Source of the DNA: Actinoallomurus purpureus
GTDB taxonomy: Bacteria; Actinomycetota; Actinomycetes; Streptosporangiales; Streptosporangiaceae
NCBI RefSeq assembly: GCF_024055795.1
Contig: NZ_JAMXMY010000025.1
Location: forward strand, 1 to 64,000
Length of the DNA: 64,000 bases
Direction: 5' to 3'
The notes below the pieces were generated by a model, which did not search any database, was not told where the DNA came from, and worked only from the letters and a program-made list of their open reading frames with translations. A program made the position numbers and the translations under genes. Positions 8,437 to 25,353 of this stretch are shown here, in pieces; the first letter of the stretch is position 1, and every line of letters starts with the position of its first letter.

Positions 8437-8517
8437 CCCCGCCCGCGTGCGCGGTCGCGCACCGGAGCGGATCCGAGGGCGACCGCGCCGTACCGGCATG
8501 TCCGCGGGCGACGGCAA

Positions 8518-8531: not shown

Positions 8532-8721
8532 GTGATCCAAGGATCTTCGCCCCGCCGCGTCCCCGCCCGTTGTCGTTAACGTCATAGGCATGGACGCCGT
8601 GATTCCAGTGGCCGACGGACGGCCCCGCACGGCCCGGTGTTCCGGCACCGGGTCGCCGTGTCGCGGCGGCTGCCGGTTTCTGATCAGCGTCCGCCCGAAG
8701 ACCCTGCCTGAAGGATGACCC

Positions 8722-9132
8722 GTGTACGACTCCGGAGGCCTGGAGATCCTGTCGGAAGACGAGTGCCGGCAGCTGATCACCGCGGTCCAGCTCGGCCGGA
8801 TCGTGTTCACGGACCGCGCGCTCCCGGCGATCCAGCCGGTCAACTTCGTCGTCGCCCGCGGTGAAGTGATCATCCGGACGTCGCCCGGGTCCAAGCTCGC
8901 CGCGGCGGCCCGCAACGCGGTCGTGGCGTTCGAGGTCGACGACTTCGACCCGGCGATCCGCACCGGCTGGTCCGTGGTGATCGTCGGACACGCCCGCATC
9001 GTGTCGGAGAACGGCGAACTCTCCGACCTGCGCAACCTCCCGCTCCGCACGTGGACACCGGCCGCCCAGGACTACTTCATCGCCATTTCCCCGGAGCTGA
9101 TCTCCGGTCGCCGGCTGCCCAAGGCGGCCTGA
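8722..9132 (+). CDS. pyridoxamine 5'-phosphate oxidase family (FMN-binding split barrel) protein
   Basis: The 136-residue product fits the Pyridox_ox_2 type of split-barrel flavoproteins: the N-terminal LSEDECRQLI...GRIVFTD...PAIQPVNFVV pattern, then GEVIIRTSPGSKL and VVAFEVDDFD, where the FMN phosphate and ring would bind. It probably binds FMN or F420 and acts in redox stress; the substrate is unknown. The GTG start is preceded by AAGGA. A DosR-like palindrome lies upstream, and relatives such as mycobacterial Rv0080 belong to the dormancy regulon. It ends just before a convergent zinc-ribbon gene. Confidence 0.8.
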   Translation: MYDSGGLEILSEDECRQLITAVQLGRIVFTDRALPAIQPVNFVVARGEVIIRTSPGSKLAAAARNAVVAFEVDDFDPAIRTGWSVVIVGHARIVSENGELSDLRNLPLRTWTPAAQDYFIAISPELISGRRLPKAA

Positions 9133-9261
9133 CCGATGCCGGGCCGCCCGAGGCGGCCGGCCTGGACGCTGGGCCGCTTGGGCGGCCTGGACGCCGGTCG
9201 CGGATGCCAGGCCCGTACGTCGCGGCCCGGACGTCGCGGCCCGGACGCCCGGCTGCGGATG

Positions 9262-9492
9262 TCAGGCCCGTACGTGCTCGATGCCGACCTCGCGCGCGCA
9301 GGCCGCACCACAGAAGATCCTGTCGTCCGCCTCGGCACCGTGCCCGAGGACCCGGCATCCGCAGTGGGCGCAGACCGGAGCGATCGCGTGCGCGGCGCAC
9401 TCGATGCTGTCGAACACGCGTGAGGCCCCGTCGGCCGTGATGACGGTGAAGACCTTGTCGTACTCATTGCCGCAGACGTCACAGTGAGCCAT
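9262..9492 (-). CDS. small zinc-ribbon protein
   Basis: The 76-residue product has clustered cysteines: CDVC near the start, then a central IECAAHA, then CAHCGCRV...GHG and FCGAAC. The C-terminal half (CAHCGCRVLGHG...IFCGAACA) resembles bacterial metallothionein-like or TRASH-type metal-binding modules, so zinc binding is likely; the cellular role is unknown. ATG at 9492 is chosen because homology starts at MAHCDVCG and a GGGGG run lies about 8 bases upstream. The region 9133-9261 on its 3' side has imperfect direct repeats (GTCGCGGCCCGGAC twice) and no gene. Confidence 0.65.
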   Translation of the reverse strand: MAHCDVCGNEYDKVFTVITADGASRVFDSIECAAHAIAPVCAHCGCRVLGHGAEADDRIFCGAACAREVGIEHVRA

Positions 9493-9639
9493 GAGAGATC
9501 CCCCGATTCTCGCCATTAGGCCACGTCTTTAGCGATTCCCCGTACTCGGCGGTCGAAGCGAGCGCCGAGGGAGTTCCCGCAGGTGAATCGACCGGCCGGG
9601 CGCGGTGCGTCACCGGGCCGGAGCGGGCAGGACGCCCAC

Positions 9640-10092
9640 ATGCAGGAGATCACGCTACGAAGCCCCGCGTTCGACGACCATGCGGAGATCCCGAAGGAGT
9701 ACTCCCACGAGGCCGGCGACGTCTCACCGCCGCTGCGGTGGTCGGGGGTGCCCGACGAGGCGGTCGAACTCGTTCTCACGTGCGAGGACCCGGACGCCCC
9801 GGTCGGCACGTTCGTCCACTGGCTGCTCGCGGGTATCCCGCCGGAGACGGAGGGCATGGAGGCGGGCGATCCGCCGACCGAGGCGGTCCCGGGACGCAGC
9901 GACTACGGGGGTCTCGGCTACGGCGGCCCGCACCCGCCTCCTGGCGACCGGCCGCACCGGTACGTCTTCCGGCTGATGGCCCTGTCCGAGCCGTCGGGGC
10001 TGACGGCAGGGCTCTCGGCCGGAGACCTGGACGAGGCGATCGAGGACAAGGTCATGACGACCGGAACCCTCGTCGGCGTCCACGGCAGATGA
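9640..10092 (+). CDS. YbhB/YbcL family Raf kinase inhibitor-like protein (PEBP)
   Basis: The 150-residue product is a bacterial phosphatidylethanolamine-binding-fold protein: MQEITLRSPAF at the start, CEDPDAP (ligand-site Asp-Pro-Asp), FVHWLLAGIP and YGGPHPPPGD..H.Y.F are the family hallmarks in order. The biochemical role of bacterial PEBPs is not settled. The ATG at 9640 is favoured over an upstream in-frame start at 9583 because homology begins there; GGAG lies upstream. It is followed by a strong hairpin shared with the convergent tRNA-Pro. Confidence 0.9.
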   Translation: MQEITLRSPAFDDHAEIPKEYSHEAGDVSPPLRWSGVPDEAVELVLTCEDPDAPVGTFVHWLLAGIPPETEGMEAGDPPTEAVPGRSDYGGLGYGGPHPPPGDRPHRYVFRLMALSEPSGLTAGLSAGDLDEAIEDKVMTTGTLVGVHGR

Positions 10093-10160
10093 GGCGCGGC
10101 AAGCCGAACCCGTACGGGAGCGAGGACCTGCCGTGACACCGCACCGGCCGGGGTGACCCG

Positions 10161-10212
10161 GTGACAGAGGAGAACCCCCGAGGCGTGGTGCCCGGGGGTT
10201 CTCCTCTGTCAC
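10161..10212. terminator. bidirectional hairpin between PEBP gene and tRNA-Pro
   Basis: A 20-bp perfect inverted repeat (10161-10180 with 10193-10212, 12-base loop) lies immediately after the 3' end of the minus-strand tRNA-Pro and 69 bases after the plus-strand PEBP gene. It can serve both. Confidence 0.75.
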
Positions 10213-10222
10213 GAACGGAATG

Positions 10223-10296
10223 TCGGGCTGGGGAGATTCGAACTCCCGACCCCTGCGACCCAAACGCAGTGCGCTACCAAGCTGCGCTACAGCCCG
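10223..10296 (-). tRNA. tRNA-Pro (anticodon UGG)
   Basis: On the minus strand the 74 bases fold into a full cloverleaf: acceptor CGGGCTG/CAGCCCG, D arm with GGTAG, anticodon stem CTGCG/CGCAG around loop TTTGGGT (anticodon TGG), T loop TTCGAAT with stem GGGAG/CTCCC, discriminator A. CCA is not encoded. A -10 element TACACT lies 11 bases upstream. Confidence 0.95.
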
Positions 10297-10306
10297 TGCG
10301 TCACCG

Positions 10307-10312
10307 AGTGTA
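10307..10312 (-). promoter_or_regulatory. tRNA-Pro promoter -10 element
   Basis: TACACT on the minus strand ends 11 bases before the mature tRNA 5' end, a typical arrangement for actinobacterial tRNA promoters. No good -35 hexamer is seen. Confidence 0.35.
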
Positions 10313-10463
10313 CCGAAAAGCCGCCGTTCCCGGCTGCCGCGCGATTCTCACGCACAGTGACGGGCTCGCGAACGGCTCATACGACCCGGCGCGCGACCCC
10401 GGCGCTCCGCCGCGAGACGGCCCTGATCTCGAACGAGAATATCGGACTAATACAGATATAACC

Positions 10464-10670
10464 CTAAATTGGAAATGCGTCGGCGGCGTTGGTCGCGACC
10501 TTCTTCGGCACGCAACAAGGGCGGTTCGCCCGGATTGCCACCAGCAGATATTCACGTTGAGTAATCACTTCAGCGCTAAAAGTGATCTTATTAATAGTGC
10601 GATCAATTAATGCGTCCAGCGTGGCCGCAAAGCGGCTCTGGTCAGCTACTCTATTGCACACGTCACACAT
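10464..10670 (-). CDS. possible small ORF in an AT-rich patch
   Basis: A 68-codon frame starts MCDVCNRV, with GGAG about 9 bases before its ATG. Its third codon positions are unusually AT-rich for this genome and nothing in it is recognisable. It is either foreign DNA or a chance frame in the AT-rich island at about 10440-10620. Weak call. Confidence 0.2.
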   Translation of the reverse strand: MCDVCNRVADQSRFAATLDALIDRTINKITFSAEVITQREYLLVAIRANRPCCVPKKVATNAADAFPI

Positions 10671-11143
10671 GACCGGGAGCTCCGGAACCCCGCGCCCGGC
10701 GCGGGTTCAGGACAGTCGGACGTCACTGCGAGTAGCGAAGAGCGGCATCTCAAGGGATACCGAGAGATCATTTTCGAAGCGGCCGGTCGCGACGGGATTC
10801 GCCCGGCACGACGGCGGAGGCCGGGAGAACGCGACCGACGCCCGAGAGGGCCGTACAACAGAAAAAGGCATCAGGGCCGCCCCCATCTCCGACCGGGGAC
10901 TGTTGGCACAGCCGGCGGTAGACGCGGGCGGCCCCCTCCTCCATCGAACCTGCCGGTTTCGGGAACAGACAAGGCTCGCGGGAGTCTATGAAATGGCTAT
11001 TTCACGCGTTTCGCCGCCATTGAGCTGGTCTAACGGCGGTCACGGGTTGCCATCGCGTCCTACCGTACGCCACCGGCGGTTCGCCGGTCGGGGGTTTACC
11101 GCTTCCGGCCCTGACGGGCCGCTCGGGACGATCGGCGGCCACC
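10671..11143. other. non-coding stretch
   Basis: Longer plus-strand frames here lack a ribosome-binding site, family resemblance or coherent composition. No RNA gene was seen. It precedes a membrane-protein gene and should hold its promoter. Confidence 0.35.
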
Positions 11144-11644
11144 ATGGATGACAGGACATCGCCCACGTCGCACCCGGCCAGCGGGCCCTCGCCCACCACA
11201 CGCCACCGGCACGCCCGATCCGGCCCTCGGCGGCAGCGAGGCGTCCTGTACGTCGCCGGCGGGCTCTTCGGGGCGAGCGGCACTGGATGGTGGCTGTCCC
11301 AGGCACGCGACGACGGTCCTCGGATCACCGGTCTCCACGTGCCGCCGTCCGTCGCGCTGTGGGGCCTGGTCGGCCTGGCCGGTTGGGGAGCACTCCTGCT
11401 TCTCGGCGAACTGACGCTGTTCGTCCTGGCGATCGTCAACGTCGCGGATCCCGAGGTGCACGACCGCTGCCGCAACCTCATGATCCTCTGGGGGTACGTC
11501 CTAACGCTGGGCACCTCCCGGCTCTTCTGGAGACTGCCCGCGCAGTTCGCCCAGCTGTTCGCCGACGAGGACACGCCCCGCCCACCCACTCGCGACCGGC
11601 CCGGCGGCCGGCGACGGCGCCGGACACGGCCGCCACAGAGCTGA
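11144..11644 (+). CDS. hypothetical membrane protein
   Basis: The 166-residue product has a basic, Ser/Pro-rich N-terminus (about 1-32), a weakly hydrophobic segment GVLYVAGGLFGASGTGWWL (33-51), a strong membrane region at about 68-100 (VALWGLVGLAGWGALLLLG then ELTLFVLAIVNVA, probably two helices) and a very basic C-terminal tail. I recognise no family. The ATG follows GCCACC with no clear Shine-Dalgarno sequence, so the start is uncertain. It lies directly upstream of tRNA-Gly. Confidence 0.55.
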   Translation: MDDRTSPTSHPASGPSPTTRHRHARSGPRRQRGVLYVAGGLFGASGTGWWLSQARDDGPRITGLHVPPSVALWGLVGLAGWGALLLLGELTLFVLAIVNVADPEVHDRCRNLMILWGYVLTLGTSRLFWRLPAQFAQLFADEDTPRPPTRDRPGGRRRRRTRPPQS

Positions 11645-11764
11645 GACCTTCCCCGGGCCGTGCGCGCGATCACCGTCCATGCGTGCACGATCCGGGCGTG
11701 GGAACCGGTACGCTACGCGAGGGACGTTGTGGGATGGGCGCTCGTCCGCTCGTCTCCTGCGCAC

Positions 11765-11835
11765 GCGGGCGTAGCTCAATGGTAGAGCCCCAGTCTTCCA
11801 AACTGGCTACGCGGGTTCGATTCCCGTCGCCCGCT
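11765..11835 (+). tRNA. tRNA-Gly (anticodon UCC), integration site of the element
   Basis: Cloverleaf: acceptor GCGGGCG/CGCCCGC, D arm GCTCAATGGTAGAGC, anticodon stem CCAGT/ACTGG around loop CTTCCAA (anticodon TCC), T arm GCGGG-TTCGATT-CCCGT, discriminator T, with CCA encoded at 11836-11838. The 3' half (from 11794) is repeated perfectly at 15744, marking this tRNA as the attachment site of the integrated element. Confidence 0.96.
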
Positions 11836-11845
11836 CCAACCACAA
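11794..11845 (+). repeat. attL: 52-bp repeat inside tRNA-Gly
   Basis: Identical to 15744-15795. It starts in the anticodon loop and runs through the tRNA 3' end, CCA and a few flanking bases. Past the 52 bp the similarity continues, with a 1-base indel, through the tRNA terminator hairpin. Confidence 0.92.
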
Positions 11846-11883
11846 AGGCCCAGGTCATCCGGCATTCCGGGACCTGGGCCTTT
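11844..11883 (+). terminator. tRNA-Gly terminator hairpin
   Basis: AAAGGCCCAGGTC (11844-11856) pairs perfectly with GACCTGGGCCTTT (11871-11883) around a 14-base loop and ends in T residues. A slightly diverged copy follows attR at 15794-15834. Confidence 0.75.
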
Positions 11884-11948
11884 CGAACACCTGGGGGCCA
11901 TTCTCGGCTCCGTGCCACAAACGTGCCACAGAGCGCCACGACCGTTGA

Positions 11949-13045
11949 TCACATCCCGCGAACGGTCTTGAACGCCTCACCGAGCGCCTGGGCGACGACC
12001 TTGTCTCGATCACGGGTCGCGTGCTGGTAGATGAGCGCCGCACGCGGGGAGGCATGGCCCATACGGGTCACCAACTCCTTGAGGCTTGCGCCCGTGCTGG
12101 CGGCCAACGTGTTGCCGACGTGCCAGAGATCATGAAAGTGCAGGTCAGGTAGGCCAATCTGGGCACGGGCCTTGTTCCAGATGCGCCGGAAGCCGGAACG
12201 CCGCAACGGTCCCCCGCGTGGTCCGACGAACACCCTGCCTTCCGGTCCGAACTCGGCAAAGGTGTCAAGGTGCGCTTGCAGGTCCGGGATGGTCTCGGCG
12301 GGGATCGCCACCGTCCGGCGTCCGGCCCGAGACTTGGGCGTGTCCTCCATGAGCTTGCCGCCGTCGAGTTCGGCGACGGCCCCGGCGATCCGGACCACTC
12401 CCTCCCCGATCGAGCTGGCCACGACGAAGGCCGGCCAACTCGCCCCAGCGGAGACTGGCGAAGGTCCCCAGAAGCACGAGCGCCCGGTACCGCTCGGGAA
12501 TGACCCCCATGATCTCGGCCACCTTGGCGAGCGGGATCATCTCCCGTTCGGGCGTATCCGGCGTTCCCGCGCCCTTGATCCGGCAGGGATTACGGCGGAT
12601 CAACTCATCGTCCACAGCCGTACTCAGAATCGACTTGAGGAGCTGGTTAGCCTTGGCGACAGTGGACTGTCCGACCTCGCCAAGCCGTTCCTTGCGCCAC
12701 CGACGTACATCCGGCTCCTTGATGTCCCTCAGGGAGTAACCGCCAAAGGTCGGGAGAAGGTGGTTGCGGAGCAGGCCCCGATACAGGTCCTCGGTGCGCG
12801 GCTTGAGCACGCGATCATCAATCCACTGAGTGGCAAAACTCGAAGGTGACCTTTCCGGCGTTCGGGTTGATCCAGTCCCCGCGATGGATCTCAGCCTCCT
12901 TCAGCACGAGCCACCGATCAGCGTCGCGCTTCGTCTCGAACGGTCTTGGTGCGGCGTACAGGACACCGTCAGGTCCTCGGTAGCGCGCTTGGAAGCGCCC
13001 GGACGGGAGCTTGCGTATGGTTCCGAACCGGCGTCGCTGAGTCAT
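11949..13045 (-). pseudogene. int: tyrosine-recombinase integrase, frameshifted and catalytically damaged
   Basis: Three consecutive frames together make one AICE-type integrase. The N-terminal SAM-like piece (12818-13045) is joined to the core-binding and early catalytic part (from about 12835 to 12410) by a frameshift in the run at 12835-12838; in the right frame this reads FATQWIDDRVLKPRTEDLY. A second frameshift lies at about 12402-12412. The first Arg (SLRWGEL) and the final Tyr (LIYQHA) are present, but the H-x-x-R box reads HDLWH: the second catalytic Arg is Trp (TGG for CGG). Its start overlaps the xis stop (TGATG). Confidence 0.9.
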
Positions 13046-13260
13046 CAGGCCGCACCCCTGCCGAGTTGCACCGGTTCGACGACACCGGCAGCGACGAAGG
13101 CAGCGACAGCTGATTCAGGTACACGGACCTTCCGCCCGAGACGGACGAAGGTGATCCGCCGCTCCTCGATGGGTCGGCGAGGGAAACGCTCAGAGGTGTT
13201 GAGCAGTTCGGCGACCTCAGCCACAGTAAGCAGCCGATCTCGCGTGGGGTCGATCTTCAC
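13045..13260 (-). CDS. xis: excisionase / helix-turn-helix DNA-binding protein
   Basis: The 71-residue product matches the excise-type winged HTH found directly upstream of AICE integrases: LLTVAEVAELLNTSERF, then PRRPIEERRITFVRLGRKVRVPESAV. It would bind attachment sites and steer the integrase toward excision. GTG at 13260 has GAGGAG about 11 bases upstream, and the stop overlaps the int ATG. The Pro in RRPIEE sits where Leu is usual, which may weaken a helix. The frame is intact although its partner integrase is broken. Confidence 0.75.
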   Translation of the reverse strand: MKIDPTRDRLLTVAEVAELLNTSERFPRRPIEERRITFVRLGRKVRVPESAVAAFVAAGVVEPVQLGRGAA

Positions 13261-13407
13261 GCGTGTGGGTTCTCCTCACGGGTCAGGGCATACGGGCGTC
13301 CTTTCGTCGAGGGCGTGAGCTGCTGGCAGATCTCACGTCCGGCCTGCCGTGTTCTCCCGCGATGTCAGCGGCGGCGTTTGGCCTGGTGTCTTCTCACCGG
13401 TAGTGAG

Positions 13408-14180
13408 TCATGCAGCGTGCAGGGCGTCATCCTCGGTGGCGTCGAGGTGGACGAGTTCTTCACGGCCGGTCTCGCGCCATTGGCGGGCTTGGTCGGCTGC
13501 GGTGTTGGCAAGAAGGGCGTCTCCGGTGGTTTTCCAGCCGGTCCCGGCATAAGCGAGCCGACTGACGATCAGGGTTGTTTCGGTGTCAACGTCGTCTTGA
13601 CGGTCAAAGCGGTCTTGGTCGTAGTCCGGGCCTTGTGGGCCTCGGTACGGCGGTAGATGACGCGTGCGTCCCGGAGGGCAGCGAAGGTGACCGAGTAGCG
13701 ACGGGCCTTGGTGAGGAAGTGACCGCCGAACCCGAGCATGTGAGCCCACCGGCGCAGGGACTCCCAATGCTCACCAAGGTCCCAGGCTGCTTGCACCAGG
13801 CGTTCGGTGTGGGTGCCGTTGGGGTCGGCGTACAGACGGATGATGGAGGGATCAAGGCGGCGGGAACTGTGACCGGTGACCTCAGTGCCCTTAGTCGAGT
13901 ACTTGGCCAGATAGCCCGCGACCATGGCGTCAGTGACGGTGCCATCGCCCGTAAGGGTGATGGGGCGGACGTCCAAGGCCTTATTCGGGTCACCCCAAGC
14001 GATAGGCCAGCCGTCGGGATGCTCGGGGTGCGGATCGGTGACGTAGCCGATTGACGCGGCGGCGTACCGGACGGCCTCATCGAGATCGGCGACGGTGAGG
14101 CCGGGGGGTGGCGGGATGATGCGGCTCTTGTCGTCGGAGTCGACGCCGAGCGCTCGGCGACTCCGGCCAGATGCTGTCCC
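13408..14180 (-). pseudogene. RepSA-type replication initiator, frameshifted and truncated
   Basis: In one frame the minus strand encodes PPPPGLTVADLDEAVRYAAA and then ALDVRPITLTGDG...MVAGYLAKYSTKGTE, the hallmark of pSAM2-type replication initiators. This continues to DARVIYRRTEAHK, after which the homologous reading shifts frame (about 13625-13645) to DQDRFDRQDDVDTETTLIV...TGWKTTGDALLANTAADQAR and stops at 13408. The upstream half expected in the family, including the N-terminal catalytic region, is missing beyond about 14180. It cannot make a functional initiator. Confidence 0.82.
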
Positions 14181-14329
14181 TCAAGTCAATCGGTGTAACC
14201 GGGTTTCCTGCGGTGGCCGATACACGGTGTTCACGGACAATCACTTGTGCGTGCGCTAAACGGCACGCGAAACACACAGCCAAAAACCCGAACAGTCGGC
14301 CACACACCGACTACCATCAGGAGGAAGAC

Positions 14330-14515
14330 ATGGCGCAACGCGAACGCGAAGATGAATGGCGAGTTCCCTCCCCTGGCCTCCCGCAGCAGGCCGCCAACCT
14401 CAGCGACGCCATCGCGAACGGGTGCGTAACCCCCGAGGGGGCGGTCCGTTCGCTCGCCGAGGGGAACGGTATCTCGGAGAGCGAGGCGAAGGGCCTCATC
14501 GAGAACGCCAGCTAG
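14330..14515 (+). CDS. small acidic protein of unknown function within the element
   Basis: The 61-residue product (MAQREREDEWRVPSPG...) has an excellent ribosome-binding site (AGGAGGAAGAC before ATG) and a downstream hairpin, so it looks like a real, expressed gene. The C-terminal half, LSDAIANGCVTPEGAVRSLA followed by EGNGISESEAKGLIENAS, is predicted as two or three helices and resembles a small helical repeat. I recognise no family. It is the only clearly intact gene on the plus strand of the element and is divergent from the dead rep. Confidence 0.65.
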   Translation: MAQREREDEWRVPSPGLPQQAANLSDAIANGCVTPEGAVRSLAEGNGISESEAKGLIENAS

Positions 14516-14565
14516 TCCTGATCGCTGAACAGGTCACGGCCCTGGCCGGCTGGTGACCAACGGCT

Positions 14566-14595
14566 CCCGGTCCCTCGCTCAGGTGAGGGGCCGGG
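14566..14595 (+). terminator. terminator after the small element ORF
   Basis: CCCGGTCCCTC (14566-14576) pairs with GAGGGGCCGGG (14585-14595), one G-U pair, 8-base loop, 51 bases after the stop at 14515. Confidence 0.55.
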
Positions 14596-14718
14596 ATCTT
14601 TGATTCCGGTGAGGGCATAAGAACTAGACACCGGTGACCGCCCTCGCGTCGGCGAACAGTGTGGTGATATGGCAGGATAAGCGAACCTCGATCCGGTCAA
14701 ACGGAAAGGGGATTCGGC

Positions 14719-15285
14719 ATGGTAAGACGTGTTGCGATGATGGCGGGGGCCATTGTTGTCGCGAGTGTCGCGAGTGTCGCGTTGACGGGTACGTCGGCGA
14801 CGGCACAGGCCGCCAATGGGCAGGGCGGCAGGGCCGTCGTCAGCTCCACACGGACGCGACTGGCCGCCGCAGTGAGCCGGATGACGCTGCTGCGGCTCAT
14901 CCGTGCGATGCCCGACCCGGCATCGGGCGGGCCGGTGCGGGTGCTGGGTGTCGATGACTTCGCCCTGCGCCGCGGTCACGTCTACGGCACCGTGCTGATC
15001 GACATCACGACCAGCCGGCGCGATCATTGTGCTGGGCGTTCTTGTCTTGAACCTCACGGGGTCGAGGGAGCCCAGCTCGACGGTGCGCTGCCTCGCGGGG
15101 TTGGCCCTGCTCATCGGTATGTACGTGCTGCTTCCTACGCTCCGGGGGCGGCGCGTATACAGGATGGTCGCCTCGCAGGGGAAATTCCAGGCCATCGTGG
15201 ACGACAGCGGGGTGCGGGTGACCTCACGGGATACCGAAACGAGGTACCAGTGGCCGATGCTCACCCGGTATGCAGAGACGGATGA
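14719..15285 (+). pseudogene. chimeric ORF: signal peptide, ISL3 transposase scrap, out-of-frame tail
   Basis: The 188-codon frame is a genetic patchwork. Residues 1-33 ([16 protein letters not shown]...ATAQAAN) are a secretion signal with GGGGA before the ATG. Residues about 44-101 are an internal slice of an ISL3-family transposase, including [20 protein letters not shown] with catalytic-core Asp residues. From about 15020 onward the frame reads out of phase through a YcxB-like gene fragment whose own frame is 15029-15415. Any protein made would be secreted junk; the frame is best treated as debris of successive insertions. Confidence 0.7.
14845..15018 (+). mobile_element. ISL3-family transposase internal fragment
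   Basis: About 58 codons encode the [15 protein letters not shown]...[21 protein letters not shown] segment typical of ISL3 (IS204/IS1001/IS1096/IS1165) transposases. Both ends of the gene and any terminal repeats are missing. Confidence 0.75.
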
Positions 15286-15415
15286 GCTGTTCGTCCTGAT
15301 GACGCCCGACAAGCACGGCATCGGCTTCGTCGTCCTTCCCAAGCGCGGCGCCGCAACACCGGCGGACCTCGACCGATTGCAAGCCGTCCTCGACCGGAAC
15401 TCCACCCGAGCCTGA
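15029..15415 (+). pseudogene. YcxB-like protein, N-terminus replaced
   Basis: The 128-codon frame carries a membrane stretch ([18 protein letters not shown]) followed by a soluble domain: [38 protein letters not shown]...VVLPKRGA, the pattern of the YcxB C-terminal domain. The usual N-terminal cytosolic strand region and first transmembrane helix (about 50-60 residues) are missing where the transposase fragment adjoins, and no ribosome-binding site precedes the first GTG. The gene was probably cut by the ISL3 insertion and later deletion. Confidence 0.6.
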
Positions 15416-15743
15416 CCCAGAGGAATCCGGCCTAGATCGAACACGCCTCCGGCGGGGGCTCAAAGAGGCCGACTGGTCATGCCGGGTTAGTCGAGCGTGA
15501 CACTGGGGGCTCCACCGCCCCCACGCCCCCGCGAGCCGGAGTACTCGCCCGCGCGCTCCTGTCTGTCACCACATCTCACCGCTCGCGCGGACGAGCACTC
15601 CGGGCCGATGCCGCCCGCCGCCATAAGCGTGCCCGCTGCGTGCCCGTCAGGATGGTGATCATGGAGGACTCACGGCGAGTCGCGGGCATCGTATGCAACG
15701 CGCTGAGCTGGGTCGGAGCAGTTCACAAGATCGCGGTCCGAAA
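15416..15743. other. non-coding right end of the element
   Basis: No supported ORF or RNA. It contains a GC-rich run of C residues at about 15505-15535 and precedes attR. Confidence 0.4.
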
Positions 15744-15795
15744 TCTTCCAAACTGGCTACGCGGGTTCGATTCCCGTCGCCCGCTCCAACCACAA
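15744..15795 (+). repeat. attR: 52-bp copy of the tRNA-Gly 3' end
   Basis: Perfect copy of 11794-11845. The sequence upstream (GATCGCGGTCCGAAA) does not form the 5' half of a tRNA, so this is an attachment-site scar, not a second tRNA gene. A diverged copy of the tRNA terminator follows directly. Confidence 0.92.
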
Positions 15796-15898
15796 GGCCC
15801 AGGTCATCCGGCATTCCGGAGCCTGGGCCTTTGATCTTCGTCAAGTCTTCTTGAGCCTTCGTGCCAGATCCGTGCCAGATTAAGACAAGCTCAAGAAA

Positions 15899-15930
15899 GG
15901 CCCCTTCCCCGAGGCTTCGGGGAAGGGGCC
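15899..15930 (-). terminator. terminator of the repeat-peptide gene
   Basis: GGCCCCTTCCCCGA (15899-15912) pairs perfectly with TCGGGGAAGGGGCC (15917-15930), 4-base loop. It lies 38 bases after the minus-strand stop at 15968 and is followed on the minus strand by CTTTCTTGAGCTTGTCTT, a T-rich tract. Confidence 0.7.
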
Positions 15931-15967
15931 AGCGGGTCATAGTCGACCCTTTAGCAGCTCTGCCGAG

Positions 15968-16123
15968 CTACGACAGCGGGAACTCGACGATCCCGCCGTC
16001 AGTCTCGACCAGCACGGACTTGCTGGTCTCGGTGGTGTTGGTCGCGGTGGAGCCCAGCGGGAACTCGACGATCCCGTCATCGGTCTCGACCAGCACGTGC
16101 TGCGAGGTGTCCTTGTTGGACAT
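15968..16123 (-). CDS. 51-residue peptide made of two near-identical 16-residue repeats
   Basis: On the minus strand GAAGGAGTAACTC precedes ATG at 16123. The product starts MSNKDTSQ, then has two units, HVLVETDDGIVEFPLGS (9-25) and SVLVETDGGIVEFPLS (36-51), joined by a Thr/Asn-rich linker (TATNTTETSK). It is strongly acidic, has no signal peptide and no Cys. Each unit looks like a beta-hairpin (strand, Asp-Gly turn, strand). The perfect ribosome-binding site and downstream terminator argue that it is expressed. I recognise no family; a modified-peptide precursor, a signalling peptide or a small structural protein are all possible. It lies 173 bases outside attR. Confidence 0.75.
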   Translation of the reverse strand: MSNKDTSQHVLVETDDGIVEFPLGSTATNTTETSKSVLVETDGGIVEFPLS

Positions 16124-16554
16124 GAGTTACTCCTTCATCAGTTGTCCGTGGATACACGTGTGGGGGTCTAGACACCCGCCACGGCAACGACTGTCTGCGG
16201 CATTCGTTGGAAGGCAACCCGCGAGAAGCGGCTAAGCCGCTGGTCGTGTTCCCGACGGGCCGCCCGTGCTGTCCGGCGATGGCAGGGTGAGCCTCCCTTC
16301 GAGCCGCAGCACCTGCCGGCATGCCTCCGTCGGGGGCGCTCCGGCTCGGGTATGGCCCCACCCGCACGCGGCGGGAGGTCTGAAAGTGGTTGAGGTGGAA
16401 GCCGGGTTATCCAAGCGGCCAGAACCGTGCGCGAGGCGCCCGCGTACGATGCGCGTTCGTGGGCCGTCCTCTCACTCTCCCGGCAGCGTCGCAACGCAGG
16501 TCACGAACGTATCTGGGGCGAAATGCGATACTGCCCTCACAGCCGCCCGTCACT
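16124..16554. other. non-coding stretch upstream of the repeat-peptide gene
   Basis: Frames here are Arg/Pro-rich shadows with no ribosome-binding sites. The minus-strand promoter of the peptide gene should lie in 16130-16250, but I cannot assign hexamers with confidence. Confidence 0.4.
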
Positions 16555-16791
16555 TCAGGGATACGATCCGGCGCCTAAGGTCCACCGGGCCCCCTGCCGT
16601 GGTGCCGGCCAGGGCCAGACGTGAGCTTTGATGACCGCTTGGGTCAACTGCTCCGGGTCAGCGGCCTCGACGAGCCGCCACCCGCCCGAGATCGGCACGG
16701 CTGCCCACCAGACCCCGGTCCGGTGACCGAACCAGAACACCAATCCAGGGAATCGCCGCCTCAACACCCTGGTGGCTTCGGAGGCCATCAC
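16555..16791 (-). CDS. small conserved actinobacterial protein, coupled to its upstream neighbour
   Basis: The 78-residue product has a Trp/Phe-rich core (LRRRFPGLVFWFGHRTGVWWAA then VPISGGWRLVEA) followed by an amphipathic helix (ADPEQLTQAVIKA). The pattern resembles small proteins often found next to HTH/TPR regulators in actinomycetes; function unknown. GTG at 16791 (or ATG at 16788) overlaps the stop of the upstream gene, so the two are translationally coupled and probably work together. It has no signal peptide. Confidence 0.65.
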   Translation of the reverse strand: MMASEATRVLRRRFPGLVFWFGHRTGVWWAAVPISGGWRLVEAADPEQLTQAVIKAHVWPWPAPRQGARWTLGAGSYP

Positions 16792-17072
16792 CTCTCCCCC
16801 GGTCCTGCGCCACGCGCTTCGAGATACTCCGCGATCGCTCTGGCCGCACCTGCCGGATCATCCACCGAGTGGCATGCTCGGTCGTCACGTCGCCATACGA
16901 ACGACTCGCCAGAAGGATCGACCTCGATCCACGTTTTCCTGTCGACCAGACCACCGCGCACGGACAGTGCCGGGCGTGCGTCGCTCAGGCCCACTTTCAC
17001 ACCGAGCTTGGCGAGTTCCCGACACAGCTCCACCAGCAGGCCGAGATTCCGCTCGCTTTGGGGCGCGTTCAC
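16788..17072 (-). CDS. small conserved actinobacterial protein
   Basis: The 94-residue reading from GTG 17072 (AGGGG about 7 bases upstream) begins VNAPQSERN, then LGLLVELCRELAKLGVKVGL, a helix, then SDARPALSV and KTWIEVDPSGESFVWRRDD, a beta sheet, and a C-terminal helix DPAGAARAIAEYLEARG. The open frame extends upstream to 17195 without similar character. The product of 56500-56790 has the same organisation (helix, W-rich sheet, DPCGAAVKVARVLEA), and both genes lie divergent from an HTH/TPR regulator, so I infer one family linked to such regulators. Function unknown. Confidence 0.65.
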   Translation of the reverse strand: MNAPQSERNLGLLVELCRELAKLGVKVGLSDARPALSVRGGLVDRKTWIEVDPSGESFVWRRDDRACHSVDDPAGAARAIAEYLEARGAGPGER

Positions 17073-17287
17073 CGAGCACCCCTGGACAACGGGTCGTTCC
17101 CTATGACGAGATGGACGGTCGATGAGAAGTTCGTTTGCTGTGCAGGCACCTGCCACTCCCGGAATCGCCGTGTCGGTTCGGTCACGGACAGTCAAATGGC
17201 TGCGGGCCCGCCGCTGGTAGACGACAATGCGGGGCAGGGCGGGGCACTGGATATATGTGCTCTCGGCATGGTCCGTGAGGTGTGAAC

Positions 17288-18532
17288 ATGGCCGGTGTGC
17301 GACGGGAATGGGCTGCTCGCATCCGTACGGCCCGCAAAGCGCGCGGATGGGACAAACCCGAAATGGCGCGCAGGCTCGCGCAGGCTGCCGGCGAGTCCCG
17401 AAGCGGTCTCCCCGATCACGAGACGCTGCTCGGGTATGTCAAGCGATGGGAACGTGCAGCCGTCGGCATCTCCGAGCGGTACCGCATGCTGTACGCACGG
17501 GCGCTCTCGACGGACGAGGATGAGCTTTTCGGCGCCCAGCCATTCGCCGCCCCTGTCGATGAGCCGGCGATCATCGGTGCGAGCGAGCCTCTGGCCGGTT
17601 CCGCATCAGGGCGCATCGGTGTTCAGGATGTCGACGAGTTCCATCGGGCCATCCAGCAGCTCTACTCGATCGATGATCAATACGGTGGTGGCCGCCTACG
17701 CGACCCCGCGCTGAGGCTTCTGCGAGGGGTTCAGCATCTTCTGGACGAAGGAACCTACACCGAGCGAATCGGGACGACACTGCGCAGCGCCGCCGGTCAC
17801 GTCTCCGAGCTTGCAGGCTGGGCGTTCTTCGATTCAGGCGATCAAGAACGCGCACGCCGTCACTACCTTGAGGCTTTGTTCGCCGCACACGTAGCGCAAG
17901 ATCATCGACTCGCCACTCTTACCTTGTCGAGCATGAGCACCCAGGCCTACTACCAGCGCCGCCCGCAGGAGGCACTCAACCTGATCAGCGCGGCAGAGGC
18001 GTCTGCCCGTGGCTGGGCGACGCCGCGAGTCCGCGCCATGCTCGCGCTCCGTGAGGCGGTCTCGTATGCCGCCATGAGAGACCGCTCGGGGTTCTCGAAC
18101 GCGATCGCACGGGCACGCTGGGAACACGCGGACGAGATCGAAACCGCCGATCCGCATTGGGTGCAGTGGCTCACCGAATCCGAACTGACCGTTCAGGAAT
18201 CCAGCTGCTTCATGGACCTGGGCGAAGCCCGAGATCTGGACCGGGCTGAAATGCTCCTCAGTGAGGCGCTTGAGGATGTGATCGGCCCCTATCAGCGCAA
18301 CCGCACGTTGTACGTCACCTGGCTGGCGGCCATCCGATATCGCCGGGGCGACGTCAACGGAGCCGCGAAGACCGGCATACAGGCCCTTGGGCTCCACTCC
18401 ACGGTGTCCTCTGCGCGTGGCGTCGCACATCTCCAGGCCCTCCGAGATCATCTCGGTGCTCATAGCGGCAATACCGTCGTACGGGAATTCCTTGAAGGCT
18501 GCCGCGAGCGGTCCGCCGGATCGAACGGCTGA
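17288..18532 (+). CDS. HTH and tetratricopeptide-repeat transcriptional regulator
   Basis: The 414-residue product has an N-terminal XRE-like helix-turn-helix (REWAARIRTARKARGWDKPEMARRL, about 6-30), then about 250 residues of TPR-like helical repeats (for example AGWAFFDSGDQERARRHYLEAL and RGDVNGAAKTGIQALGL). Such proteins are cytoplasmic regulators that may sense a peptide through the TPR groove; that is family-level inference. ATG at 17288 has GAGGTG just upstream. It is divergent from the small-protein pair 16555-17072 and lies six bases before an acetyltransferase gene. The nearby repeat-peptide gene is a possible ligand source, which is speculation. Confidence 0.8.
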   Translation: MAGVRREWAARIRTARKARGWDKPEMARRLAQAAGESRSGLPDHETLLGYVKRWERAAVGISERYRMLYARALSTDEDELFGAQPFAAPVDEPAIIGASEPLAGSASGRIGVQDVDEFHRAIQQLYSIDDQYGGGRLRDPALRLLRGVQHLLDEGTYTERIGTTLRSAAGHVSELAGWAFFDSGDQERARRHYLEALFAAHVAQDHRLATLTLSSMSTQAYYQRRPQEALNLISAAEASARGWATPRVRAMLALREAVSYAAMRDRSGFSNAIARARWEHADEIETADPHWVQWLTESELTVQESSCFMDLGEARDLDRAEMLLSEALEDVIGPYQRNRTLYVTWLAAIRYRRGDVNGAAKTGIQALGLHSTVSSARGVAHLQALRDHLGAHSGNTVVREFLEGCRERSAGSNG

Positions 18533-18537
18533 GCCCC

Positions 18538-19080
18538 GTGTCGGACTTGATCGTTCGTACGTATGACGGGTGCGGCGCCGCCGCGCTGACCGAGAAGGTC
18601 GTCGGCCTGTACGCGGCGGTGTTCGCCGAGCCGCCGTACGCCGAGGGACCGGAGGACGTCGAGGATTTCCGGGACCTGTTGGCCATCGAGATCCCGCAGC
18701 CGGGTTTCAGGCTGGTGACCGCCGAGGTCGACGGCGAGCTGGTCGGCTTCGCCTATGCCTACTCGCTCCGTGAGGCGACTCGATGGTGGGAGGACATCAC
18801 GCCATCGCCCGCTCCCGAGGTCACGGCAGAACGTGATGGCCGCACGTTCGCGGTCAAAGAACTGGCCGTCGCGGCGCCGTACCGGCGAAAAGGGATCGGT
18901 CGGCGCCTGCACGGCGTGCTCCTCGCCCGGCGTTCCGAGGAGAGGGCCACCCTCACCGTCCGGCCGGACGCCGCTCCCGCCCTCGCGGCCTACGAATCCT
19001 GGAACTGGTCTCAGCTCGGCGTGATTCGACCGGGTGGTGGAGAGATCACGTACGTGGTCATGGTCCGCTCGCTGCCCTGA
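18538..19080 (+). CDS. GNAT family N-acetyltransferase
   Basis: The 180-residue product shows the GNAT core: VTAEVDGELVGFAYAY (strand 2-3), VKELAVAAPYRRKGIGRRLHGVLL (acetyl-CoA pyrophosphate loop R/Q-x-x-G-x-G/A, here RRKGIG) and TLTVRPDAAPALAAYESWNWSQLG at the C-terminal end. The substrate is unknown. GTG at 18538 follows the regulator stop by five bases, so the two are probably co-transcribed. Confidence 0.85.
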   Translation: MSDLIVRTYDGCGAAALTEKVVGLYAAVFAEPPYAEGPEDVEDFRDLLAIEIPQPGFRLVTAEVDGELVGFAYAYSLREATRWWEDITPSPAPEVTAERDGRTFAVKELAVAAPYRRKGIGRRLHGVLLARRSEERATLTVRPDAAPALAAYESWNWSQLGVIRPGGGEITYVVMVRSLP

Positions 19081-19125
19081 CGCCTGGGTCCGTTCCATGT
19101 TCTCCGCTTGCTGACCCGGGGGCTG

Positions 19126-19212
19126 GCGCAATGCTCGGTGAACGCGCGAGCCAGGTGGCGGTCTGGGCGGGTTAGTTCCGGTTTGCGATGGCGGTTACCG
19201 AGCATTCTGCGC
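19126..19212 (-). repeat. dispersed palindromic repeat, copy A
   Basis: Arms GCGCAATGCTCGGTGAAC (19126-19143) and GGTTACCGAGCATTCTGCGC (19193-19212) form an imperfect stem around about 50 bases. On the minus strand it reads GCGCAGAATGCTCGGTAACC, matching copy B at 46789-46877 in both arms and in the CGCAAAC-GGA-AACCC interior. It lies in the 310-bp gap 19081-19390, which holds no gene and also contains the promoter of the next gene. Confidence 0.7.
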
Positions 19213-19390
19213 CGTTGCCTGGGCCGGAGCCCGGCTTCGGCGGTGGCGGGCGGGCATCGCGGCGGGGAGATGTCGCGGCTTGGCCGTCGTCGGCGGTTCG
19301 TACGGAGGTCGCGCGTTTGTCTTGCCTTTGACGCATGGGTCAAGGGTTAGCGTCGCGGCGCCTTGTTTTCGTTCTCTTGAGGAGCGTCTG

Positions 19391-20413
19391 ATGTCGGAGC
19401 TGCCCCGTACCTCCCGTGAGGTGCGCCTCGTCGCTGTTCCCTCCGGGCTGCCGCGGCCCGGGGACTTCGCCGTCGCCGATACGCCTCTACCGGCTCCCGG
19501 TGACGGGGAGGTGCTGGTACGGAACCGGTTCTTCCACGTGTTCGCGGCGCTGCGGACGTTGCTCGGGGGCGGTGTGGAAGGGGCGCCGTTCCCTCCCCTC
19601 CGTCCCGGGGACACGCTGTTCGGACCGGCGGTCGGCGAGGTGGTCGCGGCACCCGGTGACAGCGGGGTGTGGCCCGGTGACCTGGTCTTCCACTGGCTGG
19701 GATGGCGCGAGTACGCCGTCATGGCCGCCGCGGACTGCTCTCCCCTCGATGACGCGCTGCCCGATCCGATCATGCATCTGGCGCAGGGACGGACCGTGTA
19801 CGGGGCCCTGACCCGCGGCGCGAAGGTCCGGCCCGGTGACACGGTGTTCGTCTCCGGCGGAGCGGGGTCGGTGGGGTCGCTGGCCGGGCGGATCGCCCGG
19901 CTGCTGGGCGCCGAACGGGTGATCGGAAGCACCGGATCGCCGGAGAAGGCGAAGCGGATGGTCGCCGAGCTGGGCTACGACGCGGCGGTCGTCCGCGGGG
20001 CGGGGCCCCTCACCGAGCAGCTGGCAACGGCGGCGCCCGGCGGCATCGACGTCCTCTTCGACAACGTCGGCGGGGAGGAACTGCGCGCGGCGGTCGCGAC
20101 GGCCCGGCCGGGAGCGCGGTTCGTCCTGGTCGGTGCGCTGTCGGGGCAGCTGGCGGAGAGCGGCTCCGGCACCACGGCCCCGGTCGAACTCGACTCCTAC
20201 CAGCTCATCATCAAGCGGATCACGATGCTCGGGTACAGCGCCCTCGACGATCCGGGCGTCCAGGCGGAGTGGATCGACCGGTTCGGCGGCTGGGCGCGCT
20301 CCGGCGCACTCGGCTTCCCGCACGTCCGCGTCGACGGCATCGAGAACGGGCCGCGGGCGTTGCACGAAATGATGAGCGGCCGGCATCTGGGCACCGTCGT
20401 GGTGTCCCTGTAG
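19391..20413 (+). CDS. NADP-dependent oxidoreductase, MDR superfamily
   Basis: The 340-residue product is a medium-chain zinc-independent reductase of the leukotriene B4 12-hydroxydehydrogenase / curcumin reductase type: N-terminal GroES-like fold, then a Rossmann domain with VFVSGGAGSVGSLAGRIARLLGAERVIG and VLFDNVGGEELRAAV. It reduces activated double bonds with NADPH; the substrate is unknown. ATG at 19391 has GAGGAG upstream. The following merR starts 13 bases after the stop, so the pair is probably an operon with the MerR protein regulating it. Confidence 0.9.
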   Translation: MSELPRTSREVRLVAVPSGLPRPGDFAVADTPLPAPGDGEVLVRNRFFHVFAALRTLLGGGVEGAPFPPLRPGDTLFGPAVGEVVAAPGDSGVWPGDLVFHWLGWREYAVMAAADCSPLDDALPDPIMHLAQGRTVYGALTRGAKVRPGDTVFVSGGAGSVGSLAGRIARLLGAERVIGSTGSPEKAKRMVAELGYDAAVVRGAGPLTEQLATAAPGGIDVLFDNVGGEELRAAVATARPGARFVLVGALSGQLAESGSGTTAPVELDSYQLIIKRITMLGYSALDDPGVQAEWIDRFGGWARSGALGFPHVRVDGIENGPRALHEMMSGRHLGTVVVSL

Positions 20414-20426
20414 GACCGGAGGACCC

Positions 20427-20825
20427 ATGCGGATCGGCGACGCGGCGGCAGCGGCGGGCACGACACCCCGCGCGTTGCGCTTCTACGAACAGAACGGCCT
20501 GCTGCCGCCGCCACGGCGCACCGCCACCGGACAGCGGGAGTACGGCCATCGGGACGTGGCGCGCGTCCGTGTCATCCGCACGCTGCTGTCGCTCGGACTG
20601 ACCGTCGCGGATCTACGCGACTGCGGGGATCGGCTGGATCTGCTGGAGGACGACGCGCTGCCGCCGTACGGCGGGCCGGGGGCGTGCTCGCGGCCCAGCG
20701 GCGTCGCGGAGCGTCGGCTCGCCGCCCTCGACGCCGAGATCACCCGGCTGACGCGGCTCCGCGAACGCCTCGCGGCCCGGGTCGGCGCGCAGGCCCAGGG
20801 CGTGTCTGACAGATCCCGTTCGTAG
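20427..20825 (+). CDS. MerR family transcriptional regulator
   Basis: The 132-residue product starts with the MerR winged HTH (MRIGDAAAAAGTTPRALRFYEQNGLLPPPRR, 1-31), continues with YGHRDVARVRVIRTLLSLGLTVADLRD, a Cys-containing linker and a dimerisation helix (RRLAALDAEITRLTRLRERLAARV). The last eight codons (GVSDRSRS) and the stop derive from the left terminal repeat of a MITE-like sequence at 20798, so the original C-terminus was replaced by insertion. The core domains look intact. Confidence 0.85.
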   Translation: MRIGDAAAAAGTTPRALRFYEQNGLLPPPRRTATGQREYGHRDVARVRVIRTLLSLGLTVADLRDCGDRLDLLEDDALPPYGGPGACSRPSGVAERRLAALDAEITRLTRLRERLAARVGAQAQGVSDRSRS

Positions 20826-20942
20826 CGAGCGGCGTCCAGGCGGAGGAGGGGGTCAGCCTGGTTTGGCCGGCGACCGACGACAACGCGGCGGGGCGTCGCC
20901 TGAGCGTCGCGCAGCCGGACAGCGGATCTGTCGGACACGCCC
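20798..20942. mobile_element. MITE-like element with 19-bp terminal inverted repeats
   Basis: GGGCGTGTCTGACAGATCC (20798-20816) and GGATCTGTCGGACACGCCC (20924-20942) are inverted with one mismatch and enclose 107 bp with no coding capacity. The terminal sequence looks like an insertion-sequence end, so I read it as a non-autonomous derivative. No clear target duplication is visible. It supplies the last codons and stop of merR. Confidence 0.55.
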
Positions 20943-20996
20943 CAGGAGCGCGCGGCCGACCGGGGCGAGCAACCCGCCGTGGTACGGCGGGCCGGC

Positions 20997-21091
20997 GATC
21001 CCGGCCTGCCCGGCAGCACGATCAGCAGTCCCGGCCCCGGCCTGCCCGGGACCCCGATCAGTGGTCCCGGCCCTGGCCTGCCCGGCGCCCG
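20997..21091. repeat. imperfect 36-bp tandem repeat
   Basis: Two full 36-bp units (21020-21055 and 21056-21091, GATCAG...TCCCGGCC...GGCCTGCCCGG) and a partial unit at 20997-21019. The 347-bp gap 20826-21172 otherwise holds only the MITE-like sequence; no gene is seen. Confidence 0.5.
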
Positions 21092-21172
21092 GATCGGCGC
21101 GGACCGGGTCTGACCGTCCCCTCGTCGGTGCCGGGCACCGGCGGGGTCGTGACCGCGTTCGCGAGGCCCCGG

Positions 21173-21652
21173 TCAGTCCGCCTCGCCGACGCGGAGCGTG
21201 GCGTGCACCGATCCGGTCTCAGGGTCCTCCCACAGCATGGCGCCGAGGGTACGCAGAGCCGAGACGGCGGCCGTGTTGGACACATGGGTCTCGGCGATGA
21301 GCGCGCTCGCCGCGTGCGCCCGCGCCTCGTCGATCAGCAGGCGAAGCGCCTCAGTGCTGTAGCCCTTCCCCCGGGCCGAGCGCCCCAGCCAGATGTACGC
21401 CTGGACCGCGCCGGGCGCCTCCGCAGGGGTGATGCGGGCCGCGCCGGCGAGCTGCCCGTCCACCAGCACCGCGTAGGCCGCCCCGTCCCCCGGTCGGTGG
21501 TACTCGTCGAAGGCGGCGCGGCTCGCGTCGTTCCACCGGGGCGCGACGGGAACGTCCGGCATCACCTCATGCGGGTCGGTGTCGGCGATCGCGATCTCGA
21601 GCAACCTCGGCAACAGGTTCTCGTCCACCGGTTGCAGTGTGACAGTGCTCAT
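21173..21652 (-). CDS. GNAT family N-acetyltransferase
   Basis: The 159-residue product has YAVLVDGQLAGAARITP (strands 2-3), VQAYIWLGRSARGKGYSTEALRLLI (acetyl-CoA loop RGKGYS) and ETHVSNTAAVSALRTLGA (C-terminal Asn-x-x-S helix), as in RimJ/RimL-like acetyltransferases. ATG at 21652 is favoured because homology begins at MSTVTLQPVDE; an upstream in-frame start at 21712 adds 20 unrelated residues. It overlaps nothing but lies 57 bases after the phosphatase gene on the same strand. Confidence 0.85.
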   Translation of the reverse strand: MSTVTLQPVDENLLPRLLEIAIADTDPHEVMPDVPVAPRWNDASRAAFDEYHRPGDGAAYAVLVDGQLAGAARITPAEAPGAVQAYIWLGRSARGKGYSTEALRLLIDEARAHAASALIAETHVSNTAAVSALRTLGAMLWEDPETGSVHATLRVGEAD

Positions 21653-21708
21653 ACCCGCAGACTGCCAGGTGCGCGGCGCCGTGGCGTGGAGGCACGGCCC
21701 GGGAGCCG

Positions 21709-22827
21709 TCACTTCCGCCAGATGAGGACCAGGGCGCAGTCGTCGTCGCGGGCGGCGGCCATCTCGGCGACGAGTTCGGCCGCTCCCTCACGGAATCCGC
21801 TGGGGACGAGGCTCTCGACCGCGCCGAGCAGCCGGTCGATGCCGGCGTCCAGGTCGCGGCCGGGCGCCTCCACCAGACCGTCGGTGTAGAGGAGCATCGC
21901 GTCGCCGGGCCCAAGCACACCACGCTCGGGTTCGGAGCTCATCTCGGGGACGACGCCGAGCACGATGCCCTTGGCCGAGCTGACCCGCCAGGTGCCGCTG
22001 CCCGAGTGGAACTGCACGGCGGGCGGGTGGCCCGCCGACTCGACGACGTACTCGCCGGTCCGCAGGTCGATGGTGAGACGGACCGCGGTGACGAACCCCT
22101 CGTCCCACCGCTGACGGTGCAGGTAGGCGTTGCACGCCGCCAGGAACCGCTCGGGCTCGACCGAGCCGAGCAGCCCGCCGAACGCCCCGGAGAGCATCAG
22201 CGCGCGCGTGCCGGCGTCGACGCCCTTGCCGGACACGTCGACCAGCGCGACCTCGAGCGTGTCGTCGCGGCAGACCGAGACGAAGAAGTCGCCGCCGAAG
22301 GAGGAACCGCCGGCCTGGAGCAGGACCACCTTGGAGTCCCATCCGGCCGGCAGTTTCGGCATCTCTCCGTGCCGGCGCAGCCGGTCGCGCAGTTCGAGCA
22401 GCATCAGCTCGCCGCGCAGGCCCTTCACGCCGATCTGCTCCCGGCTGCGGGCCAGCACCGTCGCCAGGACGGCCGTGACGATGATCGTCGCGATGACGCC
22501 GGGGCCGACGCGCGCGAAGCCCATGGCGATCGCGTCGTACAGCAGTGCGGCGGCGACCACGCCTAGGAGGACCCCGAGGCTGCGGACGCGGAGCACGAGA
22601 CCACCGGCCAGCACGGTCAGGACGACGGCGCTGGGCGAGAACCAGGTCTGCGACGCCGGCGCGGAGATCCCGATCACTACGGTGACGGCGATGAGGGCGG
22701 CGAGGGCGTTGCGGTCCTGCGTGAGCTGGCCCCGCTGCAGCCACTGATACAGCCGCACCAGGACGGGGATCCGGCGCAGGAAGGCGCGGATCCTCGGTGG
22801 CAGGAACTGGACCAGGCGGCTGAGCAT
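21709..22827 (-). CDS. SpoIIE/RsbU-type PP2C serine phosphatase, membrane-anchored
   Basis: The 372-residue product begins with a basic segment and about 100 residues of hydrophobic helices (ALAALIAVTVVIGISAP, VVLTVLAGGLVL, LLGVVAAALLYDAIAMG and VIATIIVTAVLATVLA), about four membrane spans. The SpoIIE phosphatase domain follows: GGDFFVSVCRDDTLEVALVDVSGKGVDAG supplies the metal-binding Asp residues, then MLSGAFGGLL, ESAGHPPAV and LLYTDGLVEA. It should dephosphorylate an anti-sigma-factor antagonist; no partner is adjacent. ATG at 22827 is preferred over the long Arg-rich upstream extension. Confidence 0.88.
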   Translation of the reverse strand: MLSRLVQFLPPRIRAFLRRIPVLVRLYQWLQRGQLTQDRNALAALIAVTVVIGISAPASQTWFSPSAVVLTVLAGGLVLRVRSLGVLLGVVAAALLYDAIAMGFARVGPGVIATIIVTAVLATVLARSREQIGVKGLRGELMLLELRDRLRRHGEMPKLPAGWDSKVVLLQAGGSSFGGDFFVSVCRDDTLEVALVDVSGKGVDAGTRALMLSGAFGGLLGSVEPERFLAACNAYLHRQRWDEGFVTAVRLTIDLRTGEYVVESAGHPPAVQFHSGSGTWRVSSAKGIVLGVVPEMSSEPERGVLGPGDAMLLYTDGLVEAPGRDLDAGIDRLLGAVESLVPSGFREGAAELVAEMAAARDDDCALVLIWRK

Positions 22828-23033
22828 GATGCGGGCACTGTATCGAGCATCGCCTGGTCCGTGCTGCGTGCCGTTGCGCAGGACGCGTGTCTCGGCCGTC
22901 CGAAACACCGGTGCACCGCTCGGCTCGACGCGTCGGATCCGCCGCCGGTGACGGGTGTGGCGGCACGTTCGTGTTTTCCGCCCGCCCATCGAGGGGAGAC
23001 CTAAAAGATCATCGGATCTTCCGGAGGTGGCGG

Positions 23034-23207
23034 ATGGGACAGGGCATGCGTGTCACGGTCGACGCGGCGATGCGGGCCCGCGACGTCTCGCGCGTCCGGT
23101 CGGAGGATGATGCGCCGAGCCCTCCGGCCGCACCGCCTCAGCCCGTGAAGCCCCGTAGAGGGGAGAAGCGGCGGCTGGCGAAGCGCCGAGCCGCCGCGGA
23201 GCTCTGA
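23034..23207 (+). CDS. small basic conserved protein
   Basis: The 57-residue product starts MGQGMRVTVDAAMRARDVSR, followed by a Pro/Ala-rich linker and a very basic tail (RRGEKRRLAKRRAA). GGAGGTGGCGG before the ATG is a good ribosome-binding site. The N-terminal segment looks conserved in actinomycetes, to the best of my recollection. The basic tail suggests nucleic-acid or ribosome contact, which is inference. Confidence 0.55.
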   Translation: MGQGMRVTVDAAMRARDVSRVRSEDDAPSPPAAPPQPVKPRRGEKRRLAKRRAAAEL

Positions 23208-23292
23208 CCGGCGGCCGTCTCTGACGGCCGGCCGCCTCTGACGGCGGCGTCCGCTGACGGCTCGGTCGCCGCTGACGCTCCGGCGTCCCGCG

Positions 23293-23943: not shown

Positions 23944-25353
<1,410 letters not shown>

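Follow-up and report, generated by a model that had tools for sequence, protein, structure and literature searches.

A probable orphan gene of 51 codons with an internal repeat in accessory DNA behind a tRNA-Gly gene

The open reading frame (ORF) at 16123..15968 on the minus strand of the window (the whole 64-kb stretch of DNA analysed here, part of a 9.25-Mb genome in 52 contigs), which encodes the 51-residue peptide MSNKDTSQHVLVETDDGIVEFPLGSTATNTTETSKSVLVETDGGIVEFPLS, is very probably a real gene that is translated. In the reading that we prefer, and to which we give a probability of roughly 0.4, it would be a real but taxonomically restricted orphan gene, forming part of the accessory cargo at tRNA-Gly, with a cytosolic product forming two acidic beta-hairpins that may bind a partner bivalently. 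With regard to kind, we regard it as very probably an orphan small gene of the ordinary sort, and the short ORF, the clear translation signals and the location next to a tRNA gene within accessory DNA are all shared with such genes on bacterial genomic islands, whereas its internal 27-codon repeat and its unusually host-like codon use set it apart from them. The features referred to below are collected in Table 1.

Table 1. Coordinates of the peptide gene and of the surrounding features in the window.
Feature	Position	Strand	Remarks
Orphan gene, 51 codons	15968..16123	-	ATG at 16123, TAG at 15970-15968
RBS GAAGGAG	16130..16136	-	6 nt 5' of ATG
Intrinsic terminator hairpin, then TTTCTT	15899..15930	-	14 pairs
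First core repeat VLVETDDGIVEFPL	16055..16096	-	predicted strands at residues 9-14, 17-22
Second core repeat VLVETDGGIVEFPL	15974..16015	-	predicted strands at residues 36-41, 44-49
sB, small protein of sA-sB pair	16555..16791	-	
sA, small protein	16788..17072	-	GTG start read from sequence
NsdA-family HTH/TPR-like regulator	17282..18532	+	divergent from sA
tRNA-Gly(TCC), island insertion site	11765..11838	+	
Attachment copy 1	11794..11883	+	tRNA-Gly 3' part plus downstream
Attachment copy 2	15744..15832	+	
pSAM2-like element remnant	11949..14180	-	integrase pieces, HTH_17 protein, truncated RepSA
Conserved non-coding motif, about 90 nt	16317..16412	+	repeated in related genomes

The first-pass annotation of this DNA had proposed an overlooked small gene with a ribosome-binding site and a terminator of its own; both the GAAGGAG element and the hairpin are present, and the position was also given correctly there, with the strand, left unstated, being the minus strand. 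Upon folding, the minus strand of 15885-15970 gave z = -4.89, and none of 200 shuffles was as well folded. A search for a sigma-70-like promoter 5' of the ORF found none, which means little in high-GC actinobacteria. The encoded product has a mass of 5.4 kDa and a pI of 4.05, with nine Asp and Glu and two Lys and Arg residues and without Cys, Trp or Tyr, and inspection by eye revealed neither an export signal nor a hydrophobic N-terminal segment.

The proposal of an overlooked gene gained further support from codon statistics trained on 18 long genes of the window. With 40 samples taken from each gene in frame (720 samples) and 1440 samples taken off frame, the ORF scored 0.79 bits/codon, a value reached by none of the 1440 off-frame samples and not exceeded by 79% of those in frame. 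Its codon use was thereby closer to that of the host than in the other island genes scored, among which ADH reached 0.32, GNAT1 0.30, MerR 0.20, the RepSA piece 0.13 and the YcxB-like gene 0.11, with the NsdA-type regulator at -0.09, sA at -0.17 and sB at -0.28; the conserved SpoIIE-type phosphatase gene outside the tract scored 0.48. Among 500 dinucleotide shuffles of 15840-16560, a lenient control because shuffling destroys triplet structure, none contained an ORF of 40-80 aa that followed an RBS and scored as high. The window holds 410 ORFs of 40-80 aa, 11 of which reach at least 0.7 bits/codon, and only two of these 11 carry an RBS, namely the peptide ORF and 26693-26854, the latter being the tail of the gene at 26693-27382. 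It is because of the host-like codon use together with the outcome of the shuffles that we consider the ORF very probably translated, and the coding signal is above chance, as in orphan small-protein genes.

The two near-identical copies noticed earlier in the peptide are indeed in-frame repeat units in a register of 81 nt, or 27 codons, with nine residues only ahead of the first and a Thr/Ser/Asn linker joining the two. Over 64 nt the copies are 80% identical, while in the 14-codon core 39 of 42 nt are the same, which is above chance, and three differ; in the 24 nt preceding the core 12 positions differ (Fisher p = 1.2e-4 against 3/42). The codon differences within the core are those previously described, two of them synonymous (ACC/ACT and GAT/GAC) and one nonsynonymous (GAC/GGC). 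The accompanying claim that the peptide sequence had been kept rests on just these three differences, and a ratio of two synonymous to one nonsynonymous, for which we estimate p at about 0.16 if some three quarters of random changes are nonsynonymous, is compatible with neutrality. The difference in divergence between core and flank is what an important core would give, but the unevenness could instead come from a short duplicated unit, and purifying selection cannot be demonstrated from three differences.

Searches with the whole peptide retrieved nothing but the peptide itself from its own genome. Seven of 100 relatives gave matches at E<=1, one being the peptide itself and the others weak and partial; among 341 family genomes five matches at E<=0.1, again including itself, held none that was convincing; 394 class genomes gave itself and one match of E 0.0195 at E<=0.05, and 396 phylum genomes only itself at E<=0.01, these genome sets overlapping one another. 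All eleven weak matches were inspected and taken as chance, being low-scoring partial alignments of which 10 lie inside frames of at least 167 residues. Peptide patterns hit 208 stretches in GTDB species contigs and 21 in viral contigs, none of which was confirmed. A relaxed core pattern hit 21 and one, respectively, with one match per locus; 20 titles of the GTDB stretches give a lineage, none of them actinobacterial, and one reads only 'Bacterium'. None of the 22 loci had a second relaxed core motif in frame with the first, a partial test in that the expression missed some first copies. Plasmid and phage collections yielded no peptide relative, and the family and structure databases were likewise negative, with no match in Pfam up to E 1, in NCBIfam up to E 10 or in PADLOC, a best E of 0.14 in PHROGs and of 1.1 against PDB sequences, and no Foldseek match of the predicted model at E<=0.001. 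A Trypco1-type identity, considered on the presumption that VEFPL and VLVE recall such domains, was not supported, Pfam giving no match at E<=1.

As judged from these searches the peptide appears to be an orphan, with no convincing relative in collections that may leave out records of its own species and that do not extend to metagenomes, and the earlier statement that it belongs to no recognisable family thus holds across genomes, phages, plasmids, families and structures. As for orphan small-protein genes generally, no homologue outside the species was seen in the searched collections. The lack of a homologue in any related genome had been named beforehand as a reason for doubt; this is what the searched sets gave, and it leaves function open. 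Since no homologue was found, selection on the protein is without evolutionary evidence.

With regard to location, the gene was said to lie beside the scar of an integrative element, and this was borne out by the attachment copies, the integrase pieces and RepSA. The tract begins with the element between two attachment copies of about 90 bases and continues with the peptide gene, the motif of about 90 nt, sB, sA, the NsdA-family regulator, GNAT1, ADH and MerR. Seven congeners (G001-G007) were compared over the regions surrounding tRNA-Gly or the genes that follow it, and in six of them (L146-L151) the order tRNA-Pro, tRNA-Gly, variable stretch, GNAT2 (21173-21712), SpoIIE-type phosphatase and RpiB is kept, with about 0.65 to 3 kb between tRNA-Gly and GNAT2 compared with 9.3 kb in the window. 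In G002 the site is divided between contigs, with tRNA-Gly at a contig end (L154) and an attachment-region copy about 25 bases from GNAT2 on another (L153). Similarity to G005 at the DNA level reaches about 15880, ending just before the peptide gene, and from there to GNAT2 no DNA match was found in the congener regions except an ADH-like match of about 100 bases in G001. None of the small ORFs in the variable stretches of the congeners resembled the peptide, and none of the seven had a counterpart of it at this site. By this comparison, the tract from tRNA-Gly to GNAT2 (to about 21170) is variable accessory DNA.

The neighbouring element itself resembles pSAM2-type AICEs in its attachment copies at a tRNA 3' end, its tyrosine integrase pieces, its HTH_17 protein and its RepSA match. 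In one account of AICEs (PMC3218068), their modules are an integrase, a replication protein of the RepSA, RepAM or Prim-Pol type and an FtsK-like Tra. Here, in contrast, the integrase is in pieces, split across frames, RepSA is truncated and Tra was absent among the element ORFs scanned, and the element between the attachment copies is thus decayed and pSAM2-like, an AICE remnant at most. A YcxB-like protein, possibly cargo, is encoded between the attachment copies at 15029-15415 (+).

The strongest rival to the preferred reading, although in itself unlikely, is that of a young or decaying ORF without kept function, formed by island sequence with an internal 81-bp duplication and perhaps translated. 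It would agree with the failure to find a convincing relative in any searched collection, with the decay of the adjoining element and with core substitutions lacking a significant synonymous bias, but it accounts poorly for codon adaptation above that of most in-frame host-gene samples, for the combination of a strong RBS with a terminator and for a core far better kept than its flank. Readings as a RiPP precursor, a non-coding element, an amyloid-like element or a signal peptide are all lower.

Returning to the reading of an orphan gene carried as cargo, a single-sequence AlphaFold2 prediction, made without an alignment, placed strands at 9-14/17-22 and 36-41/44-49 with a short strand at 29-32, at moderate confidence (mean pLDDT 71.5, pTM 0.40, no residue at or above 90). 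The model is consistent with two acidic beta-hairpins, each formed by one repeat, of the form VLVET-D(D/G)-GIVEFPL, connected by the Thr/Ser/Asn linker, and the product would be cytosolic, as no export signal is visible. The hairpins might then offer a single intracellular partner a pair of equivalent edges for binding, and the small protein would act bivalently, as an adaptor or an inhibitor, the binding being pure inference. The minimal repeat protein suggested in the first-pass annotation is supported as one option. That the peptide stands for a new minimal class of fold and function, a freestanding two-hairpin bivalent adaptor or a self-assembling island-borne element without known relative, would come as a considerable surprise to us. 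If made and functional, the gene would constitute a family of one, noticed only through its internal repeat, and would make a compact system in which to study the origin of new small proteins on islands, here through a hairpin duplicated within a short ORF.

A modified-peptide precursor had also been suggested, and multi-core RiPP precursors are in fact short, with repeated cores and usually a leader. The peptide resembles them in its shortness, its two short cores and its Thr/Ser-rich linker, and the tract also contains a GNAT gene; in this reading, the two cores would be matured by enzymes encoded elsewhere. However, a Pfam scan of 27 other ORFs of 8038-27382, a set that includes pieces and overlapping frames and covers a subset of the genes of that stretch, revealed no modification enzyme; matches were to Pyridox_ox_2, PBP, integrase pieces, HTH_17, RepSA, YcxB, GNAT, ADH, MerR, SpoIIE, RpiB, Aldedh and DSBA, the rest being weak or without any. 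The RiPP-type match of the GNAT was far under cut-off (E 0.12, 12.2 bits against 250). With the peptide also lacking Cys, having too few residues before its first repeat for the usual leader and matching no curated precursor family in NCBIfam or Pfam within the limits given above, the suggestion is not supported and we consider such a precursor very unlikely.

That the repeat is a DNA or RNA element rather than part of a protein gene might be proposed from the strong hairpin downstream and the conserved non-coding motif upstream, but is made highly improbable by the frame-specific codon signal and the RBS of the ORF. A self-assembling two-repeat beta element, by analogy with HET-s-type or bacterial amyloid signalling motifs, would suit two short beta-rich pseudo-repeats with a polar linker; it is extremely improbable in view of the missing Pfam match and of the absence of any such partner protein among the scanned neighbours.

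The first-pass annotation had further pointed to a nearby HTH/TPR regulator that might sense the peptide. The regulator has a match to NsdA, a family of TPR-like regulators, but its more regular company appears to be the sA-sB pair, downstream of which, with the motif in between, the peptide gene is found. sA has 13 matches in its own genome at E<=0.001, including itself, and a match in 24 of 100 family genomes. At 20 further sA loci, 12 of them from the same genome, sB was matched in 13 (E<0.01) and the peptide in none (E<=1), most of these loci having a regulator-size ORF upstream; seven of the 10 such ORFs scanned had HTH or NsdA-type matches (L063, L064, L066, L068, L071, L077 and L078) and three had not (L072, L076 and L079, the last with DUF5919). 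Because of these two results, sA-sB would seem to be what this regulator is usually paired with, and since the sB-sA-NsdA module recurs without the peptide, it gives no evidence for peptide sensing. A signal peptide read by this regulator, 1.2 kb off, is therefore scarcely credible; by eye, no hydrophobic segment for export is visible either. The idea of sister peptides hidden at other sA/sB loci found no support among the matches listed. The sA-sB pair itself is without a Pfam family, occurs in several copies per genome in the genus and often stands beside divergent HTH or NsdA-type regulators.

Finally, the motif between the peptide gene and sB is widespread. A 701-base query was matched in 191 of 338 genomes (E<=0.01), with most of the matches listed falling in the motif and many being short, and within the genus all eight genomes had 2 to 6 motif matches each. 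The motif is probably non-coding, because an alignment of 20 copies contained indels of lengths not divisible by three; it folded no better than shuffles, and Rfam gave no match at gathering score and, over the motif, none at E<=5. A role as leader or promoter of the peptide was not supported, given this folding, the unrelated cargo and the occurrence in either relative orientation. The motif is enriched near tRNA-anchored islands: of 42 motif loci of about 3 kb (the window's own included, two overlapping), seven hold a tRNA gene and a further 11 show just an attachment match resembling tRNA-Gly, in some cases no longer than 23-26 nt, which makes 18 in all. At 100 control loci, which were other fetched loci unmatched by genome, there were eight attachment matches, two measuring 44-60 nt and the others less, and no tRNA gene. 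At three loci (L155, L156 and L170), a succession of attachment copies and motifs extends over several kb behind tRNA-Gly(CCC) with varying small cargo genes, an arrangement that suggests stacked small integrative cassettes, and a motif conserved in such tRNA-anchored arrays may matter more than the peptide.
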